A DNA stretch of 64,000 bases from a virus, in the IMG/VR virus record IMGVR_UViG_3300034198_015644, positions 42,490-106,489 of that record; one strand, given 5' to 3'. Positions 21,401-59,745 of the stretch are shown in pieces; the first letter of the stretch is position 1; each line of letters opens with the position of its first letter. The notes beneath the pieces are model-generated. The model did not search any database, was not told where the DNA came from, and saw nothing but the letters and a program-made list of their open reading frames with translations. Both the position numbers and the translations under genes were made by a program.

Positions 21401-24400
21401 GAAATTACTATGTATCTATAAGTGGATGTAGTGGGGCGACGTTAGTGACATTAAGTCCATTTACAATTTTAGATAACAATACTTTTTATAATAACATCTT
21501 CCAATTAAACAATGAAGAGTTTTGTGTTACTGTAAGTGGTGGTACATTACCTTATATAATTACAATTGATGGAGTTTCTCAAACGTATCAAAGTGCAGAC
21601 ACATATTGTTTTAGTGCAAGTTGTTTAACACCACCATCACCATCACTAATTAGATGTAGATTAAGTAATAATAATGGAAGAATAAATAGAGCTTGGGATG
21701 GAACACCTTTAAGTCCATGTCAACATACTTTTACAATTTTAGATTTAACCGTAAATGGAGTCCAATATGGACCCGGTACACCACTAACAGTTACCGCACC
21801 TTCAGGATTGATGGCGGGAATAGGTACTGATGGTAATAGTTACGTCACCAATATTACTGATTGGATAAATAGTTATGTGCCAGCAGGATTTACATTTTGG
21901 GATGACATGAAAGTTGTCGATAGACCTGTAGGATCAACATTTAACTTAACCATAAGTTACTTCAACGCATGTGCAGGAACAACTCAACAATATACATATA
22001 ACGACTCTACGGGTTGGACAATACCGGGACCTCAAACATATTCTACATATGATTGTGTACCTTTAACAATTGGAGGTGGATCACAAACAGGAAGAACAGT
22101 TACTATTAGTGATGCGGAAGGATGTAGCGCAAGCACTGTTATAAATTATACTTGTGAAACGCCAACAATTAGTATAAGTGGCACAAATCTTTGTTGTAAT
22201 AATGACGGAAGTGTAAGTATAACAGTCAATAATGGAGTACCTGCTTTTAGTGTTACCGGCACTAATGCGACTACGGGTGAAGAAATAATTGTAACTTCAC
22301 CCACAACTCCAATAAACATAGATCATTTAACTCCGGGTAATTGGACGTTTGTTGTACAAGATTCTTACGGTAATTTAATAACCACCAATAATACAATTAA
22401 TTTAATAAGATCTTATAATGTTGATTTTTTCAGTGCAAGCACTTCCCCAACAGGGACTACATTTTGTTTTAGTGGAGAATCTTGTTTAGATTATTTGAAT
22501 GTAATTATTGAAGCTACCGGTCAAATAACCTCGATCAATCTAAACCCGACACCGGATGCTTGGTTTGGTACTGATGGAATTATTGATACAAATACTTTAT
22601 ATTGCTTTGACATACCAATAGAGTATTGTGGAAACGATGTAATAAATATATTATTTTTTAATGGACTAAATACTAACATAAATGTTCTATCAGGATCATT
22701 TACTAACCCAACCTGTCAGGCGCTATTTGGATATGTAGGGGCACAAGAAGGTACTTGGGTTAATGGGTATCCTGCTTATTGGTTTACTCTTAATAATGGA
22801 ATTGATGTTGTAGTTTATTTTGATTTAACATTAAATCTTTGGGTTTGGAAAAATAGAAATAGTGGTACTATTTGTTCATCTTCACCTGATTTAATAAACT
22901 GGACATCAATAAATACTAGTCCAAATTGTCAGTGTGTTGATAGTTTTACTAGTTCTATAGTTATTGCTGTCGATTCTTGTGGTTACATATACGAATCTAT
23001 AAGTTTACCATGTCCGACACTTACATTAAGTGGAACATCAGTAAATCCTACATGTATTCAAAATTGTAGCGGAACAATAACATTGACATCATCAGGAGGT
23101 CAATCACCATTTACTTTTCAATTAACAGACTCCAATGGAAATACATTATTAAATTCCATTGGACAACCAACAATTGCAACAAATATAACTACTAATAGTT
23201 ATACATTTACTAATCTTTGTTCGGGTACTTATTATACATTAATTACTGATAGCGCTTTCCCAATTCCAGCTACGGCAAATACAACACCAATAGTTTTAAT
23301 AAATACATTTATCGCTAGTGCAAATGTTTTACCTATAACAATAAATGGCACTGGAGGTACAATTTGTTTTACGGTTACAGGAGGTAGTGGAAATTATAAT
23401 ATTGACATACAAGATACCAATTATACTTATCCGCCAGTAAATGATACTATAGTGGACGGTGAAACTTGTTTTGATTTGCCATTTGGGTGTTATGATTGGT
23501 CAATTATAGATCCTTCCACATTATGTCAATACACAGGAAATACGTGTATACCTGAGACACCATTTGGTTGCGGAGATTATACATATACTGACCCAACCTG
23601 CACCAATGACGGCACATTAACAATCAATGTTAGTGGAGGAACGGGTCCATATCAATTTGATTTATACCTTAATGGAATTTTCAATCAAACAGGTACTAAT
23701 TCTGTTGAAACATTTACATTTCAAAATTTAGTTGCGGGAACTTATAACGTTTTAGTTACAGATTTAGGTAGTGGGACAGTTTTAGATTGTGTTACAGTAA
23801 CATTAGTAAATACGTTTAGTGTTCAATTTATAAGTGGAAGTACTTGTGAAAATCCAGGATATTATTGTGTCTCATTTTCAGGAGGAAATCCACCATATAT
23901 TATAGAGTTTGATCAGACTATACAATATGTTGAATATATTGCAGGTACATACTGTTACCAAGCACCTTGTGGAACTTATGAATTAACGGTAAGTGATAGT
24001 GCAATTATTGGAAATTGTTATCAAGTCCAAGTGTACACTAAAGGATTGGGTGGATTTATTATAACCACAGATATAAATGGAAATGAAATTGCAAATACTG
24101 TACCAATTTCATTAAGTCCACAAACATTTTATTTTTGTTCTTTTAGTGCGCCTTATTATTCGGTATCAGGACCACCTTATAGTCCATATGTACCTCCATC
24201 ACCATATTATCTTAATATTTCTACATCAGGAGATTGTTCTAGTACGAATTGTGGCGGATCAACAATAGGTGGATGTAGTGATTCACAAACAATCACAATA
24301 TCTTGTGGAGTTGATTTAAGTGCAACTACCGTTGGTAACCCTTGTGGTCAAAATGGTCAAGGATCTATAACTATATTTAATATTGGTGGATCACCTAATT

Positions 24401-27400
24401 TCCAATATTCAATAAACGGAGGTTTAACCTATCAATCGTCTAATTATTTTACTGGACTAAATAGTGGTACATACGATATTACAATATTAGATGCAAGTGG
24501 TTGTACGGCATCAACTCAGGCGGTAATAGGGTATCAAACAAATTTAAGTGTAAGTGCGAGTACAACACCTGAAAATTGTGACTATAGTAGTGGGGGAACT
24601 ATTACGATTAATATAGTTGGAGGTACACCTACATATTCAATATCACTTAATGGAGGATTACCAACTACGCAAACATATTACACAGGATTAACAGTAGGAA
24701 CTTACACATTTAATATTACAGATTCAGAAGGTTGTACTGCGACAATTGATGTTACAATTGAACCACCAATAAGTCTTAGCGGTACAATAACTACGTCAGA
24801 AAGTTGTAGTTATTCACCATCATTAAATCAATATTTGGCACTTAAAGTCGAGTCGCTAATTAACTATTTAGGTAATGATGTATTAGAAAATGAACACATA
24901 AATTATGCGGTTTGTCAAGGATATACAATTTTCCAATCCTATGGGGTGGCTAAAATATGGAGGACATTATCCCCAACTGTAACTAATCCACAAGGATTAA
25001 ATAGAGCGCAGGCAGAGGCAAGACTTAGTGTATTTTTAGGTAAAATATATTCGGCAGGTTTATTACCAGTGGCACTTTTAGGTGACACTGCAGACATGGA
25101 TTGGTTGGCAAGTGTGGATGCGGTAAATGCAAATAAATTTTGGGGAATTGGTTTAGAAAATGAATTTTGGAATGGTGCAGTATCTTTTGCGAATTGGGTT
25201 AGTTATTTAAATTATTTAAAAGTTACATATCCACAATATTTTAGGATGGCATATTTGGCCAATCCGGCAGGAACTTGGGGGGCAACTGAAGCATTACAAA
25301 TTATAGATGCGCAAATAGATGTAATAGAAATTACAAATTATAATTCAGGTAAACCTAATCCAAATTGGGGATCTTTTGTTAACCAATTAAATCTTTTAAG
25401 TACTGCGGCAAATATTAGAGGAGTTAATCAAAAATTTATACCATTATGGAGTGCGGAATATAATGGTAACTCAGGTAATAATTTTTCGGGACAATATTTT
25501 GGCGTTACTACAAATTATACAAAAATAAATCCATCTGCAGTACTTACGCAATATGATATAGATTTTGCTGCAGTAACATATGCATACCCTCCGAATTTGA
25601 CAAAGGTAGGATTTAGTATGTATGAATACATTTACGCAATTGATGCGGGTGTATTACCTCAATGTACGAATTTATCGGGTTCAATAACTGCTTCTACTAT
25701 AACTTCTGGTGGTACAGGAGTTTATAGTACCTCAGGAACTTTAACAATAAATGCTAATGGTGGATATGCCCCATATCAATACTCAGTAGATGGTGGGGCG
25801 TTTGGAACATCTAATTATTTTACAGGATTAAATGGTGGAATACATAATTTTGTGGTAATAGACGCGAGCGGTTGTACTGTCAGCGGTACGACCACAATCG
25901 GAGGGGCATTTGAGTTTGAAACATCAGTGACATCGTTAGATTGTTTAACAACTAGCAGTGCAACCATATGTGTTACAAGTATATCAGGAGGATACCCACC
26001 ATACACCTATTCAATTAACGGAGGATCTTTTAGTAGTTCAAATTGTTTTAGTGGATTATCTTCAGGTTCATATACAATTGCAGCTCAAGATTTATCGGGT
26101 TGTAGTGCAACAACAGTAGTATTTATTTCTGCACCATCACCAATTATAGTAAATGCAAATGTAATAGATTCAATTAGTTGTTTAGATGGGTCAAGCGCTA
26201 GTGGAGGTACTATAACAATTACTGCGACCAATGGTACTTCACCATATTATTATAGTATTGATAGCGGGTTAAATTATCAAACATTAAATACTTTTATAAA
26301 TGTACCTGTAGGTACATATACCATAGTAGTTAAAGATTCCTTAAATTGTACAGGTACTACTACAGTAAATGTTGGAACAAGACCTTCGTTCTCAATAAGT
26401 GCCTCATCTACGCCTGATAATTGTAGTTTAACAGGGTTAGGTAGTTTAACTATAAACGTTATCGGAGGATATTCACCATATTACTATTCAATTGACGGAG
26501 GTTTATTCTTTAATGGACCAATAAATTCAAATTCTTATTATCAAGGAGGATTAAATCCGGGTGTTTACGACATAGTAGTTGAAGATAGTAGCGGTTGTAC
26601 TGCGACCACACAAGTAACTATTATCACTAGTGAAGATTTAACTATAGGCGTTGTAACAACACCTGAAACTTGCAATTACAATAGTGGGGGTACGGCAACT
26701 ATTAGTGTGACAGGAGGGACTCCAACATTTACATATTCATTAAATGGATCTTCTCCAGTTTCTTCTAATTATTTTACAGGTTTAACTGTTGGTACATACA
26801 CAGTAACAGTTACTGATAGTTTAGGATGTAATGATACAATAACATTTACTATTGATCCACCAATAAACATAAGTGGTAATACAACTCCTCAACCATGTAA
26901 TGGTATTAGTGGTGGTACGTTAACAATAAATGCATCTTCAGGTAATCCACCATATACATATTCTGTCGATGGTGGATCATTTACCAACAATAATTATTTT
27001 ACAGGATTAACAACAGGTAGTCATACCATTATTGTTAAAGACGCAAGCGGATGTACCGCGTCTACAATAACACAAGTAAATCCACCAATTATTGTAAGTG
27101 CCGTAACTACACCAGAAAATTGTTTATATACAAGTGCGGGTACAATAACAATTGTCAGTACTATTGGAGGTACTTCACCTTATACTTATTCAGTTAATGG
27201 TGGATCATTCACAAATTTAACATATTATACAGGATTAACTTTTGGTAGTTATAATATTATCGTAAAAGATATTTCAGGTTGTAGTGCAACTACGCAGGTG
27301 ACAATTAATCCACCTATACCTGTTAGTGGTACAGTAGTTACTACAAATTTAGATTGTAATAATACTAACATAGGTACATTATTGATAACTGCCTATGGAG

Positions 27401-55999: not shown

Positions 56000-56043
56000 T
56001 GGAAAATATTTTCTAAAATACTTGTTTTAGTGGAAAATATTTT
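56000..56043 (+). promoter_or_regulatory. Pair of 13-bp direct repeats flanking the -33 box (operator candidate)
   Basis: TGGAAAATATTTT occurs at 56000-56012 and again at 56031-56043. Start-to-start distance is 31 bp, about three helical turns, and each contains the palindrome AAAATATTTT. The second copy lies in the promoter spacer, so a bound dimer would block RNA polymerase. Confidence 0.5.
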
Positions 56044-56052
56044 ATACTTTTG
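56021..56052 (+). promoter_or_regulatory. Promoter for the DUF2828/TROVE-like gene
   Basis: CTTG at 56021-56024, 20-base spacer, TACTTTTG at 56045-56052 (TAnnTTTG). The ATG follows 20 bases later at 56073. Confidence 0.7.
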
Positions 56053-56072
56053 TAATTCTAATCTTAATTACT

Positions 56073-57479
56073 ATGGACTTCATTCAATCTCTACAGACCA
56101 AAGATACCGTAACTGAAAATGGTATACCTACTAATAGTACTTCTATGGATCGTTGTGTTGATCTATTTTTTATGATTGGTGCAGTTAGAGGTCAACATAG
56201 TGAACGAATTTTAAAATTATTTATAAGGGCATTCTATGAAAATAGAACTGCAGCTCTTCGTATTTTATTTTGGGCTCGTGATGTTAGAGATGGGGCTGGA
56301 GAGAGAAGTACATTTAGAATTATTTTTAAATGGTTATGTGATAATCATCCTGAAACTGTAATTAAAAATTTAAGTTATGTTTCATATCTTGGTCGTTGGG
56401 ATGACATGTTGGTTGCAATTGGTACAAAATGTGAAGATGCAGTTTTTGAGGAAATAAAAAATGGATTAGAAGATGGTAACCAACTCTGTGCTAAATGGAT
56501 GCCACGTAAAGGTAAAATTGCCAACATTCTTCGAAAAAAGTTTAAGATGACCCCAAAGGAATATCGTAAACTTTTAGTTTCTAATACTAATGTTGTGGAG
56601 ACTAAAATGTGTGATAAGAAATGGTCAGAGATTGAATATGGTAAATTACCTAGTCTTGCCATGTCACGTTATAGTACTGCCTTTAAAATTAAAGATAGTG
56701 TAAGATTTAATACTTATCTTAATGATTTAAAAAATGGTAAGGGTAAAGTAAATGCAGGTGCAGTATATCCTTACGATATAATTAAAAATTTACGTAGAGG
56801 TAATTCTGATTTGGCACAAGAACAATGGAATGTTCTTCCTGATTATATGGCGGAGTGTCACGATTTGGTGTTTCCATTGGTAGATGTATCGGCTAGTATG
56901 GATACACCAATTGGAAGTAATTCAAATCTTACGGCAATAGATGTCGCAATTTCATTGGGTCTTTATATTAGTGAAAGAAATGTCGGACCTTTGAAAGATT
57001 ATTTTATGACTTTCTCTCAAAGTCCTGAGTTGGTATACGTTAACGGTTCATTAGAAGATAGAATGTACCAAATGGAGTGTACACATTGGGGGATGAATAC
57101 TAATTTGATAAAAGTGTTTCAGACCATGTTAAAACACGCCAAAGAGAATAATGTTCGTGCTTGTGATATGCCAACTAAAATTTTAATCCTTAGTGATATG
57201 GAATTTGATATGGCAATCAATAATTCTAAAAATAGTGCAATGGAAGAGATTGAAAATCTTTACCGTGAAAATAATTATACGTTACCTAAAATTGTATTTT
57301 GGAATATTCAGGCAAGAGGTAAAAATTTTCCTGTCACTTTTGATAAAAATGGAACTGCACTTGTATCTGGATTTTCTCCATCAATTCTAAAATCAATACT
57401 TAAAATGGATGTTGCAAATCCACATAGAGTTATGTTAGATACAATTAATGATTACAAATATTTGGGTATTAAACCATAA
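56073..57479 (+). CDS. DUF2828/TROVE-like (Ro60-like) protein with vWA domain, 468 aa
   Basis: Residues about 25-240 are helical-repeat type: ERILKLFIRAFYENRTAALRI, WARDVRDGAGERSTFRIIFKWL, HPETVIKNLSYVSYLGRWDDML. This is the DUF2828 pattern and closely parallels the HEAT-repeat ring of Ro60/TROVE proteins. Residues about 265-440 are a von Willebrand A domain with MIDAS D271-V-S-A-S275, GMNTNL and ILSDMEFD. Ro60-type proteins bind Y RNAs and misfolded RNAs. Directly downstream is an independent small RNA gene with a Y-RNA-like closed stem, which suggests an RNP. It has its own promoter with a paired repeat. DUF2828 is known from viruses and eukaryotes without a defined function, so the Ro link is inference. 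Confidence 0.8.
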   Translation: MDFIQSLQTKDTVTENGIPTNSTSMDRCVDLFFMIGAVRGQHSERILKLFIRAFYENRTAALRILFWARDVRDGAGERSTFRIIFKWLCDNHPETVIKNLSYVSYLGRWDDMLVAIGTKCEDAVFEEIKNGLEDGNQLCAKWMPRKGKIANILRKKFKMTPKEYRKLLVSNTNVVETKMCDKKWSEIEYGKLPSLAMSRYSTAFKIKDSVRFNTYLNDLKNGKGKVNAGAVYPYDIIKNLRRGNSDLAQEQWNVLPDYMAECHDLVFPLVDVSASMDTPIGSNSNLTAIDVAISLGLYISERNVGPLKDYFMTFSQSPELVYVNGSLEDRMYQMECTHWGMNTNLIKVFQTMLKHAKENNVRACDMPTKILILSDMEFDMAINNSKNSAMEEIENLYRENNYTLPKIVFWNIQARGKNFPVTFDKNGTALVSGFSPSILKSILKMDVANPHRVMLDTINDYKYLGIKP

Positions 57480-57496
57480 AAATATTTTTAAAAAGC

Positions 57497-57528
57497 CTTG
57501 TATATTTGAAAAAATATATTTATCTTTG
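57497..57528 (+). promoter_or_regulatory. Promoter for the small RNA gene
   Basis: CTTG at 57497-57500, 20-base spacer, TATCTTTG at 57521-57528, the same geometry as the other promoters of the window. Start of transcription is expected near 57531-57535, just at the RNA stem. Confidence 0.7.
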
Positions 57529-57708
57529 TAATGTTGTTTGAGGGATGATTTCAGCAAAATTTAAACTTAAATGTAAACTGGAAAACAACATGTGAGTTTA
57601 TCTGGTACTCACGATAATATTGATATCGATGTTATCATTAAAAACGGAAACCTCCATCCTGTACAACATTATGAACCTGTAAATAACCTTTACAGGTTTA
57701 TTTTTTTT
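57529..57708 (+). ncRNA. Candidate Y-RNA-like small RNA paired with the DUF2828/TROVE-like gene
   Basis: About 175 bases between a good promoter and a strong terminator, with no open frame. The ends can pair: TAATGTTGT (57529-57537) with ACAACATTA (57663-57671), GGATG (57543-57547) with CATCC (57655-57659), then TTTC (57549-57552) with GAAA (57647-57650), leaving a one-sided CCTC bulge. Two hairpins lie inside: GTGAGT/ACTCAC (57592-57612) and a 9-bp stem 57613-57636 with loop GATATC. The 5' strand can instead pair with AACAACAT (57583-57591), so two exclusive folds exist. Closed ends with an interrupted stem and an inner module recall bacterial Y RNAs, but the Ro-binding consensus is not obvious. 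It could also be an unrelated regulatory RNA. Confidence 0.65.
57674..57708 (+). terminator. Strong intrinsic terminator of the small RNA
   Basis: A 10-bp stem AACCTGTAAA (57674-57683) / TTTACAGGTT (57689-57698) with a 5-base loop is followed by TATTTTTTTT. It ends the small RNA and separates it from the 97 aa gene. Confidence 0.88.
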
Positions 57709-57734
57709 ATTATATTTAATAAAAAAGAATTATT

Positions 57735-58028
57735 ATGGAAACAGAAAAAGAACCACTTATTTTAGTATTTTACATCTATAGAGATGTATTGGCACAAAAA
57801 GACATCAGAGATGAATATATCAATGGAGTTAAAAAACACTTTGAAGATATAAAAATAAAGGCAACATTTTTCTTTTTACCCACAGATACTGAAGAAAGAA
57901 TTGAATGCTTAAATCCTAGATTTATTGAAGATCAGAATGAGGTTGAAAAACTTAAAAGAATTTTAGAGGACGTAGAAAAACGTTTTGAAATTGATACTAA
58001 GTCTACTGATAATGTGGATGAAGATTGA
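57735..58028 (+). CDS. Unidentified acidic protein, 97 aa
   Basis: An alpha/beta pattern: PLILVFYIYRDVL strand, a helix, FFFLPTDTEERIEC strand, then helices ending in an acidic tail (DTKSTDNVDED). No motif recognised. It lies after the small RNA terminator and has its own terminator at 58057. No good promoter is visible in front, so some read-through from the small RNA unit may serve it. Confidence 0.65.
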   Translation: METEKEPLILVFYIYRDVLAQKDIRDEYINGVKKHFEDIKIKATFFFLPTDTEERIECLNPRFIEDQNEVEKLKRILEDVEKRFEIDTKSTDNVDED

Positions 58029-58728: not shown

Positions 58729-59745
58729 ATGAAAGATTTATATGAAATTTTGGGTGTAAGTAGGGATGCTTCTGCGGAGGATATTAAAAAGGCGTATAAA
58801 AAATTGGCAATACAATATCACCCAGATAAGAATCCTGGTAATAAAGAGGCTGAGGAAAAAATGAAAGATATAAATCATGCCTATAGTACACTTTCTGATG
58901 AAGAAAGTAAGCGAAAATATGATATGGGTGGATCCGATATGGGTCACGGTGGATTTGGTTTTGGTTTTGATCCATTTGATATTGCTTCAAGGATGGCGGG
59001 TTTTGGTTTTGGGGGTAGACGAAGAGGTCAACAAAAAGGAAGAGATATTAAAATAGAACTCGCAATTACTTTAGAGGAGATATACAGAGGTGTTAGTAAA
59101 AAAATAAGATTTAATCATTCTGTCGGATGTAATACTTGTTCAGGTACTGGAGGAAAAGAAACTAACTGTGAAGTATGTAAAGGGCAAGGAGTTATGACAC
59201 AAATTATTGATACCCAAATGGGTAGAATGATGAATCAAAGAATTTGTGGTAGTTGTAATGGATCGGGTAAAATAATTACTGACCCTTGTAAAAAATGTAA
59301 TGGTATTGGTAGTGAAGTAAAATCTGAAGTGATAGATATTAACATACCTCAAGGATGTGAAAATGGTCATACTTTTATAGTTAAAGGAGGTGGGGACTTC
59401 ATGAAAAATGGTGTATCAGGTGATTTATATGTTGTAATTTCTGAAATTCCTGACATAACCACCCAACGGCAAGGCAATGATTTAATTAAAAAAATAACTT
59501 TATCGTATATTGATTTTATTATTGGTAATGAGTATATTTTAGAAACTTTTGATGGTAAAATAAAAATTAACATTCCTGAATTGTCTGAAGTTGGAGATAA
59601 TCTTAGGATAAAAGGAAAAGGATTTAAACGAAATGGGTTAGTTGGTGATATGATAATAATATTAGAACTAACATTACCTAAACAAATAAATGAAAAAGAA
59701 AAAGAATTATTAACAGAAATTAAAAATTTAAAAAAACAACTATGA
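58729..59745 (+). CDS. dnaJ: Type I DnaJ co-chaperone, 338 aa
   Basis: J domain with the catalytic H31-P-D33 loop (QYHPDKNPGN). A Gly/Phe-rich linker follows (GHGGFGFGFDPFD). Then come four CxxCxGxG-type zinc motifs (CNTCSGTG, CEVCKGQG, CGSCNGSG, CKKCNGIG) at about residues 134-190, and two C-terminal beta domains (IPQGCENGHTFIVKGGGDF...). It is complete but shorter than host DnaJ (about 370-385). It stimulates DnaK ATPase, here presumably that of the host, for folding of phage proteins or replication complexes; no phage DnaK is seen. It shares ATGA with the next gene. Confidence 0.92.
   Translation: MKDLYEILGVSRDASAEDIKKAYKKLAIQYHPDKNPGNKEAEEKMKDINHAYSTLSDEESKRKYDMGGSDMGHGGFGFGFDPFDIASRMAGFGFGGRRRGQQKGRDIKIELAITLEEIYRGVSKKIRFNHSVGCNTCSGTGGKETNCEVCKGQGVMTQIIDTQMGRMMNQRICGSCNGSGKIITDPCKKCNGIGSEVKSEVIDINIPQGCENGHTFIVKGGGDFMKNGVSGDLYVVISEIPDITTQRQGNDLIKKITLSYIDFIIGNEYILETFDGKIKINIPELSEVGDNLRIKGKGFKRNGLVGDMIIILELTLPKQINEKEKELLTEIKNLKKQL

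Follow-up and report, generated by a model that had tools for sequence, protein, structure and literature searches.

The closest described systems are ribonucleoproteins (RNPs) in which Y RNAs are held by Ro60/Rsr proteins of the TROVE family; Ro60 is known as a human autoantigen. RtcB is a typical neighbour in several bacterial Ro operons. Chen et al. 2014, known to us via citations, are said to have described Y RNAs in mycobacteriophages. That description, the ROT/TROVE proteins reported in jumbo phages (PMC7824862) and a suggestion of Y RNAs for a Listeria phage (PMC12282133) are prior claims that limit the novelty of what is presented here. The locus under study lies in a window of 64,000 nucleotides, the whole stretch of DNA that was analysed, which is part of the 106,489-base IMG/VR phage record IMGVR_UViG_3300034198_015644. 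It consists of a gene for a protein of the DUF2828/DUF7788 family and, on its 3' side, a putative small RNA carrying a motif that recurs beside related genes.

The best reading of this locus and its relatives is a second Ro/Y-like RNP family. We assign a probability of roughly 0.6 to a second, independent RNP of the Ro/Y type, made of DUF2828 rings and RNAs with a universal CAGCAA handle, found in phages as well as on the chromosomes of bacteria from several phyla, with some handles grafted into tRNAs, with the protein in some virions, and perhaps acting from the first minute of infection. The narrower statement, that the DUF2828 protein and the motif RNA are two parts of one RNP, is very probable. 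Finding the same protein-RNA pair in widely differing phages, and on bacterial chromosomes too, suggests a particle that is widespread and as yet undescribed.

The protein comprises 468 amino acids and matches the Pfam models DUF7788 (3.8e-47) and DUF2828 (1.7e-40), while the TROVE model (PF05731) gave no match in the same scan. Its PHROG match is PHROG 850, “RNA-binding protein” (2.9e-140), a family present in 681 phage records. The AlphaFold2 model, computed with 73 sequences, has a pLDDT of 85.1 and a pTM of 0.83. In a Foldseek search of the PDB all four matches at E<=1e-3 are TROVE/Ro60/Rsr structures, namely TROVE 9kop (7.6e-9), the Ro60/pre-5S rRNA complex 9nep (1.4e-7), Ro with RNA 1yvp (2.4e-7), and Rsr 2nvo (1.5e-6), with TM scores of 0.40-0.59 by query length. 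The von Willebrand factor A (vWA) protein with Ro-ring-like helical repeats that the first-pass annotation had read at this position is thus borne out. The vWA metal site DxSxS...T...D is present, and D271, S273, S275, T343, and D375 are invariant across 73 relatives. At the level of sequence the relation is distant: a profile made from 71 relatives matches TROVE structures weakly and through the vWA part alone (4e-4), and the alignment of a single TROVE protein is no more than marginal. We also note that giant-virus DUF2828/DUF7788 proteins in BFVD (Pithovirus, Marseillevirus, Cafeteria roenbergensis virus) have the same fold, and that two places match the protein in Fletchervirus records (locus L022, Campylobacter phage CP81), possibly a second, partial DUF2828 gene.

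The motif was first recognised by reading the DNA before or after the DUF2828 gene in relatives. It starts with one 7-nt strand of a helix, after which come three nucleotides and CAGCAA; a variable inner part separates these from the complementary 7-nt strand, and an obligatory G ends the motif. In phage copies A-U is the most frequent first pair and G-C the most frequent second pair, and the inner part is rich in A on its 3' side, immediately before the helix. In the discovery set of 72 non-redundant loci, the strict motif gave 74 matches in 41 loci, against a mean of 1.4 (maximum 9) for 59 permuted hexamers, 1 on the opposite strand, 0-8 with other spacings, and 0-1 for each following base other than G. 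Two later sets, unused in defining the motif, behaved alike. The second viral set, a few loci of which overlap contigs of the discovery set, yielded 111 matches in 48/79 loci (permuted mean 2.0, opposite strand 1), and the set of bacterial genome contigs 187 matches in 71/80 loci (permuted mean 1.7, opposite strand 3). Motif-positive loci hold one to eight copies each. The conserved RNA structure expected beside related DUF2828 genes was therefore found, in the discovery set and in both further sets. Its form is not the predicted one: the structure is common to related loci, but in place of the CCTC bulge it has a 7-bp helix followed by NNN and CAGCAA, with a G after the closing strand.

Pair-aware scoring with a threshold of 12 bits gives the same picture. 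On the gene strand and the opposite strand, respectively, it finds 117 and 0 copies in the discovery set, 154 and 1 in the second viral set, and 214 and 1 in the genome loci; copies occur at 55/72, 57/80, and 74/80 loci of the three sets. The covariance model R1 was trained exclusively on phage copies in the discovery set. Beside DUF2828 genes of genome contigs it has 107 matches, all on the gene strand, and in the second viral set 122 of its 125 matches lie on that strand. Among 81 bacterial copies not used for training, each of the seven pairs shows changes in both partners, pairing holds in 99.3% of cells, and covariation scores 0.75, compared with 0.07-0.15 when the strands are slid, in an alignment that was fitted to R1 and is hence biased towards it. 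The covariation in alignment A3 is partly circular because its copies were picked by pairing; for this reason reliance is placed on the permuted-core, spacing, following-base, and opposite-strand controls, together with the bacterial set found by the model. Rfam 15 scans match the motif RNAs to no family, Y RNAs and ribozymes included.

The association extends to whole genomes. R1 matches at E<=0.1 are found in 27/29 whole records bearing DUF2828, and phages without a gene-adjacent copy still have matches: KVP40 (2.2e-9), Vibrio phage 1.081 (4.6e-9), Erwinia phage SNUABM_49 (five copies, best 2.6e-7), and Aeromonas phage AsFcp_1 (2.3e-8). The copies of KVP40 and of the Erwinia and Aeromonas phages lie in trans, kilobases to about 200 kb from the gene. 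The genomes of T4, SPO1, and phiKZ have no R1 match at E<=1. In a 9.2-Mb Chloroflexota genome the sole R1 match at E<=0.01 is at the DUF2828 locus. A search that started from DNA leads back to the protein. The 16-mer AGGTTCCTTACAGCAA is contained in 43 IMG/VR stretches, 28 of which have the matching 3' strand within 500 nt, with G next each time; the protein is encoded on 19 of these 28 full-motif contigs vs none of the 15 contigs with the 16-mer only (Fisher p 1e-5). The motif contigs that lack a DUF2828 gene are mostly fragments carrying R1 copies. As a separate observation, in two Chloroflexota contigs (L252, L254) the DUF2828 gene and motif RNAs lie inside closely packed tRNA gene arrays with over 20 members.

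Citrobacter phage Ci1 and Cronobacter phage S13 carry the motif in circularly permuted form inside tRNA-like genes. The order there is the 3' strand, a short loop starting with G, the 5' strand, NNN, and CAGCA, and the copies are capped by a tetraloop. Over all loci this permuted arrangement was counted 19 times vs a mean of 0.9 for all 60 cores. The genes that hold it resemble tRNA genes with an enlarged anticodon arm; some carry annotations as odd tRNAs 113-121 bases long, and in S13 the pair is recognised over 113-121 bases by Rfam tRNA models. The tRNA-like genes of L018 (3870-4095) and L019 (3857-4099), some annotated as tRNA-Ser or tRNA-OTHER, have the anticodon arm replaced by a long arm with the permuted motif. 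The tRNA-like domain was seen in the Ci1 and S13 phages only, and the copy in the window is without it.

The stretch 3' of the DUF2828 gene in the window has no good open reading frame (ORF), and its features are collected in Table 1. The TATCTTTG box and its TTG form what we take to be a Bacteroidota-type promoter, a class that the sigma-70 scan does not cover. The intrinsic terminator that had been proposed to end the non-coding unit was recovered by the scan, with 0.2 expected in shuffles. The fold of the unit has a z-score of -5.6 against shuffles with the terminator and -2.7 without it; the latter value makes fold energy by itself moderate evidence at best, and it was rejected as proof. 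The RNA ends had been said to pair over 9, 5 and 4 bp. Paired ends are indeed found, TGTTGT with ACAACA and GGGATG (57542-57547) with CATCCT (57655-57660), but the exact layout was reproduced only in part. With a pair-aware score derived from 59 copies of other loci, the window copy is the top site on both strands of the window at 20.6 bits, the runner-up having 6.8, and ten unpaired positions (57549-57558) contribute 14.3 bits. R1 gives it 14.8 bits in a misaligned register because the model was trained on short-loop copies, whereas this one has a long inner loop of 102 nt and a mismatched innermost pair. R1 was accordingly dropped as a detector in the window and replaced by the pair-aware scoring, which has no penalty for loop length. 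A tRNA or tmRNA identity was also considered for the window RNA, and the scan found none.

Table 1. Features of the DUF2828 gene and the adjoining RNA unit (about 57533-57708), in window positions.
Feature	Positions	Strand	Basis
DUF2828/DUF7788 protein, N-terminal helical repeats and C-terminal vWA domain, Ro60-like fold	56073-57479	+	Pfam, PHROG, AlphaFold2, Foldseek
-7 box TATCTTTG, TTG about 20 nt upstream; RNA start predicted about 57533	57521-57528	+	read by eye
Outer helix, 5' strand UGUUGU (pairs with 57663-57668)	57532-57537	+	fold
Conserved 7-bp helix, 5' strand GGGAUGA, innermost A mismatched	57542-57548	+	family-motif register
Motif core UUU-CAGCAA (CAGCAA at 57552-57557)	57549-57557	+	motif register, score
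Variable inner domain, two hairpins (GUGAGU/ACUCAC-type and GAUAAUAUUGAUAUCGAUGUUAUC)	57591-57636	+	fold
Conserved helix, 3' strand CCAUCCU (57654-57660), then invariant G (57661)	57654-57661	+	pair-aware score
Outer helix, 3' strand ACAACA	57663-57668	+	fold
Intrinsic terminator, 13-bp stem (57671-57701) and U tract	57671-57709	+	terminator scan

Two further genes of the window are recorded here. A small ORF at 57735-58028 (METEKEPLILVFYIYRD...), directly after the RNA, is a conserved third neighbour. It has no Pfam match, and counterparts of it can be recognised in the same place in related Bacteroidota phages (e.g. L006, L087, L096). At 58729-59745 the phage encodes a complete DnaJ with J, zinc-finger, and C-terminal domains.

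Published data on Listeria phage CKA15 (OR088597) bear on the expression of such RNAs. The orthologue CKA15_055 is located at 23695-25215 on the minus strand, and three R1 copies lie just upstream of it at 25288-25552. In PMC12282133 three very abundant non-coding regions are reported up to 2 kb upstream of the orthologue, and the orthologue protein is reported in purified virions with 57% coverage. The same paper offers Y RNAs as one of several unverified guesses for these non-coding RNAs (ncRNAs) and gives no motif. The annotation of CKA15 has three sizeable non-coding gaps within 2 kb, one of which contains the motif array, and the array is probably one of the three abundant regions so described. 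The most abundant CKA15 RNA (26,236-26,727; L329 3237-3728) has no significant R1 match. It appears to be a separate, very abundant phage ncRNA, for which no known family is named. The earlier statement that DUF2828 has no described RNA partner holds to the extent that our literature search found neither DUF2828 nor DUF7788 named together with an RNA, but Y RNAs had already been suggested for this orthologue. No RNA partner is annotated for PHROG 850-type genes in the database records examined.

Several observations weigh against the two-part RNP. About a quarter of the viral loci (17/72 and 23/80) have no copy of at least 12 bits in the fetched flanks. The window copy itself has one mismatch, A.C at the innermost helix pair, and the window RNA was assessed without any close relative of its phage. 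An RtcB neighbour was found in 1/28 records, so that RNA repair is not a common context of these genes, and it was rejected as a general one. A different account of the gene-adjacent copies is a cis-regulatory leader, in which the DUF2828 protein would bind copies in its own mRNA and regulate itself with no separate RNA particle. The arrangement in bacterial genome contigs fits this account, as 207/214 copies precede the gene on the same strand; yet in the window and in many relatives the RNA is downstream of the gene, the window RNA has a predicted promoter and terminator of its own, and neither the distant copies of KVP40 and the Erwinia and Aeromonas phages nor those embedded in tRNA-like genes are positioned as leaders. 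We regard autoregulation as quite improbable. The tandem copies, which with their little spacing are reminiscent of processing arrays, might also suggest that the element acts as a DNA site or an RNA-processing site (a ribozyme or cleavage signal), and that its link with DUF2828 reflects operon history. The near-absolute strand bias, the retention of circularly permuted forms, the return of the DNA-first search to the protein, and the lack of a ribozyme match in Rfam leave this idea barely credible.

The locus could further be understood as a true Ro60 with ordinary bacterial Y RNAs of the YrlA class; Chen et al. 2014 would then have dealt with them already, and only the phage and host range would be new. 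The fold is identical in kind, the gene neighbourhood is similar, tRNA-like forms exist in two phages, and Y RNAs were suggested for the Listeria orthologue in PMC12282133. Pfam, however, finds no TROVE domain in the protein, and no Y RNA match was obtained from Rfam. TROVE and DUF2828 each occur in 4 of 250 Bacillota genomes, with no genome in common. At seven canonical TROVE loci the motif is absent except for a chance-like site in L332, with an 18-nt loop and opposite to the TROVE coding strand, and three TROVE phage genomes have no R1 match better than E = 0.16. A protein pattern search for viral TROVE loci returned no matches, which limits the comparison to the seven loci, a small sample; published Y RNA alignments were not among the material compared. 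On this evidence a true Ro60 is unlikely, and since the seven TROVE loci lack the motif, the DUF2828 protein is considered Ro-like in fold and layout, with a distinct RNA element.

For a second Ro/Y-type RNP, a mechanism can be proposed. The DUF2828 protein would be a ring of Ro60 fold with a vWA cap, and the ring would recognise an RNA handle. In this handle a 7-bp helix leads into an asymmetric loop, one strand of which bears CAGCAA and the facing strand of which is rich in A, and a G comes right after the helix. The motif element may serve as the docking handle of the protein, constant among the RNAs, while the cargo domain would vary between a plain loop, hairpins, and a whole tRNA-like body. 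Given a fixed handle and a variable domain, the protein probably takes up one to eight RNAs per phage, and the variable domain of the loaded RNAs may gate or tether the ring, as Y RNAs do on Ro60. A role of the RNP in RNA surveillance or remodelling during infection is put forward tentatively. The likeliest use would be the steering of a nuclease to structured RNA, or the supply of tRNA-like decoys for tRNA-directed enzymes; a redirection of RNA decay by the particle, or a decoy function of this kind, during infection is a weaker suggestion than the binding itself.

If correct, this proposal gives the DUF2828 family a precise, testable RNA ligand, none being described in the literature searched, and makes Ro/Y-like particles a common tool of large phages. 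DUF2828 is carried by hundreds of sequenced phages of Escherichia, Salmonella, Mycobacterium, Listeria, Staphylococcus, Enterococcus, Vibrio, and Campylobacter, and by bacterial genome contigs. A motif as short and specific as this one allows direct tests of binding, of mutants, and of phage deletions in laboratory systems, which offers a route into the old question of the role of Ro/Y particles.

Compared with known systems, the DUF2828 model shares the helical repeat and vWA fold with Ro60/Rsr. Like Y RNAs, the motif RNAs are small, lie beside the gene, several per locus, and have paired ends that close a variable inner part. Versions with a tRNA-like body are seen in two phages, and the tRNA-embedded motif forms parallel the tRNA mimicry that bacterial Y RNAs are reported to show, as known via citations of Chen et al. 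2014. The “Ro-like RNA binding protein” of mycobacteriophages and PHROG 850 denote the same protein family, a database name derived from remote homology. In CKA15 the likeness lies in the motif copies beside the orthologue and the difference in the top RNA, which is not recognised by R1. In contrast to Ro60/Rsr, which belong to TROVE PF05731, the protein is assigned to DUF2828/DUF7788; its loci have no general RtcB neighbour, unlike Ro operons; and the 7-bp helix-NNN-CAGCAA...G element was missing at the seven canonical TROVE loci compared.
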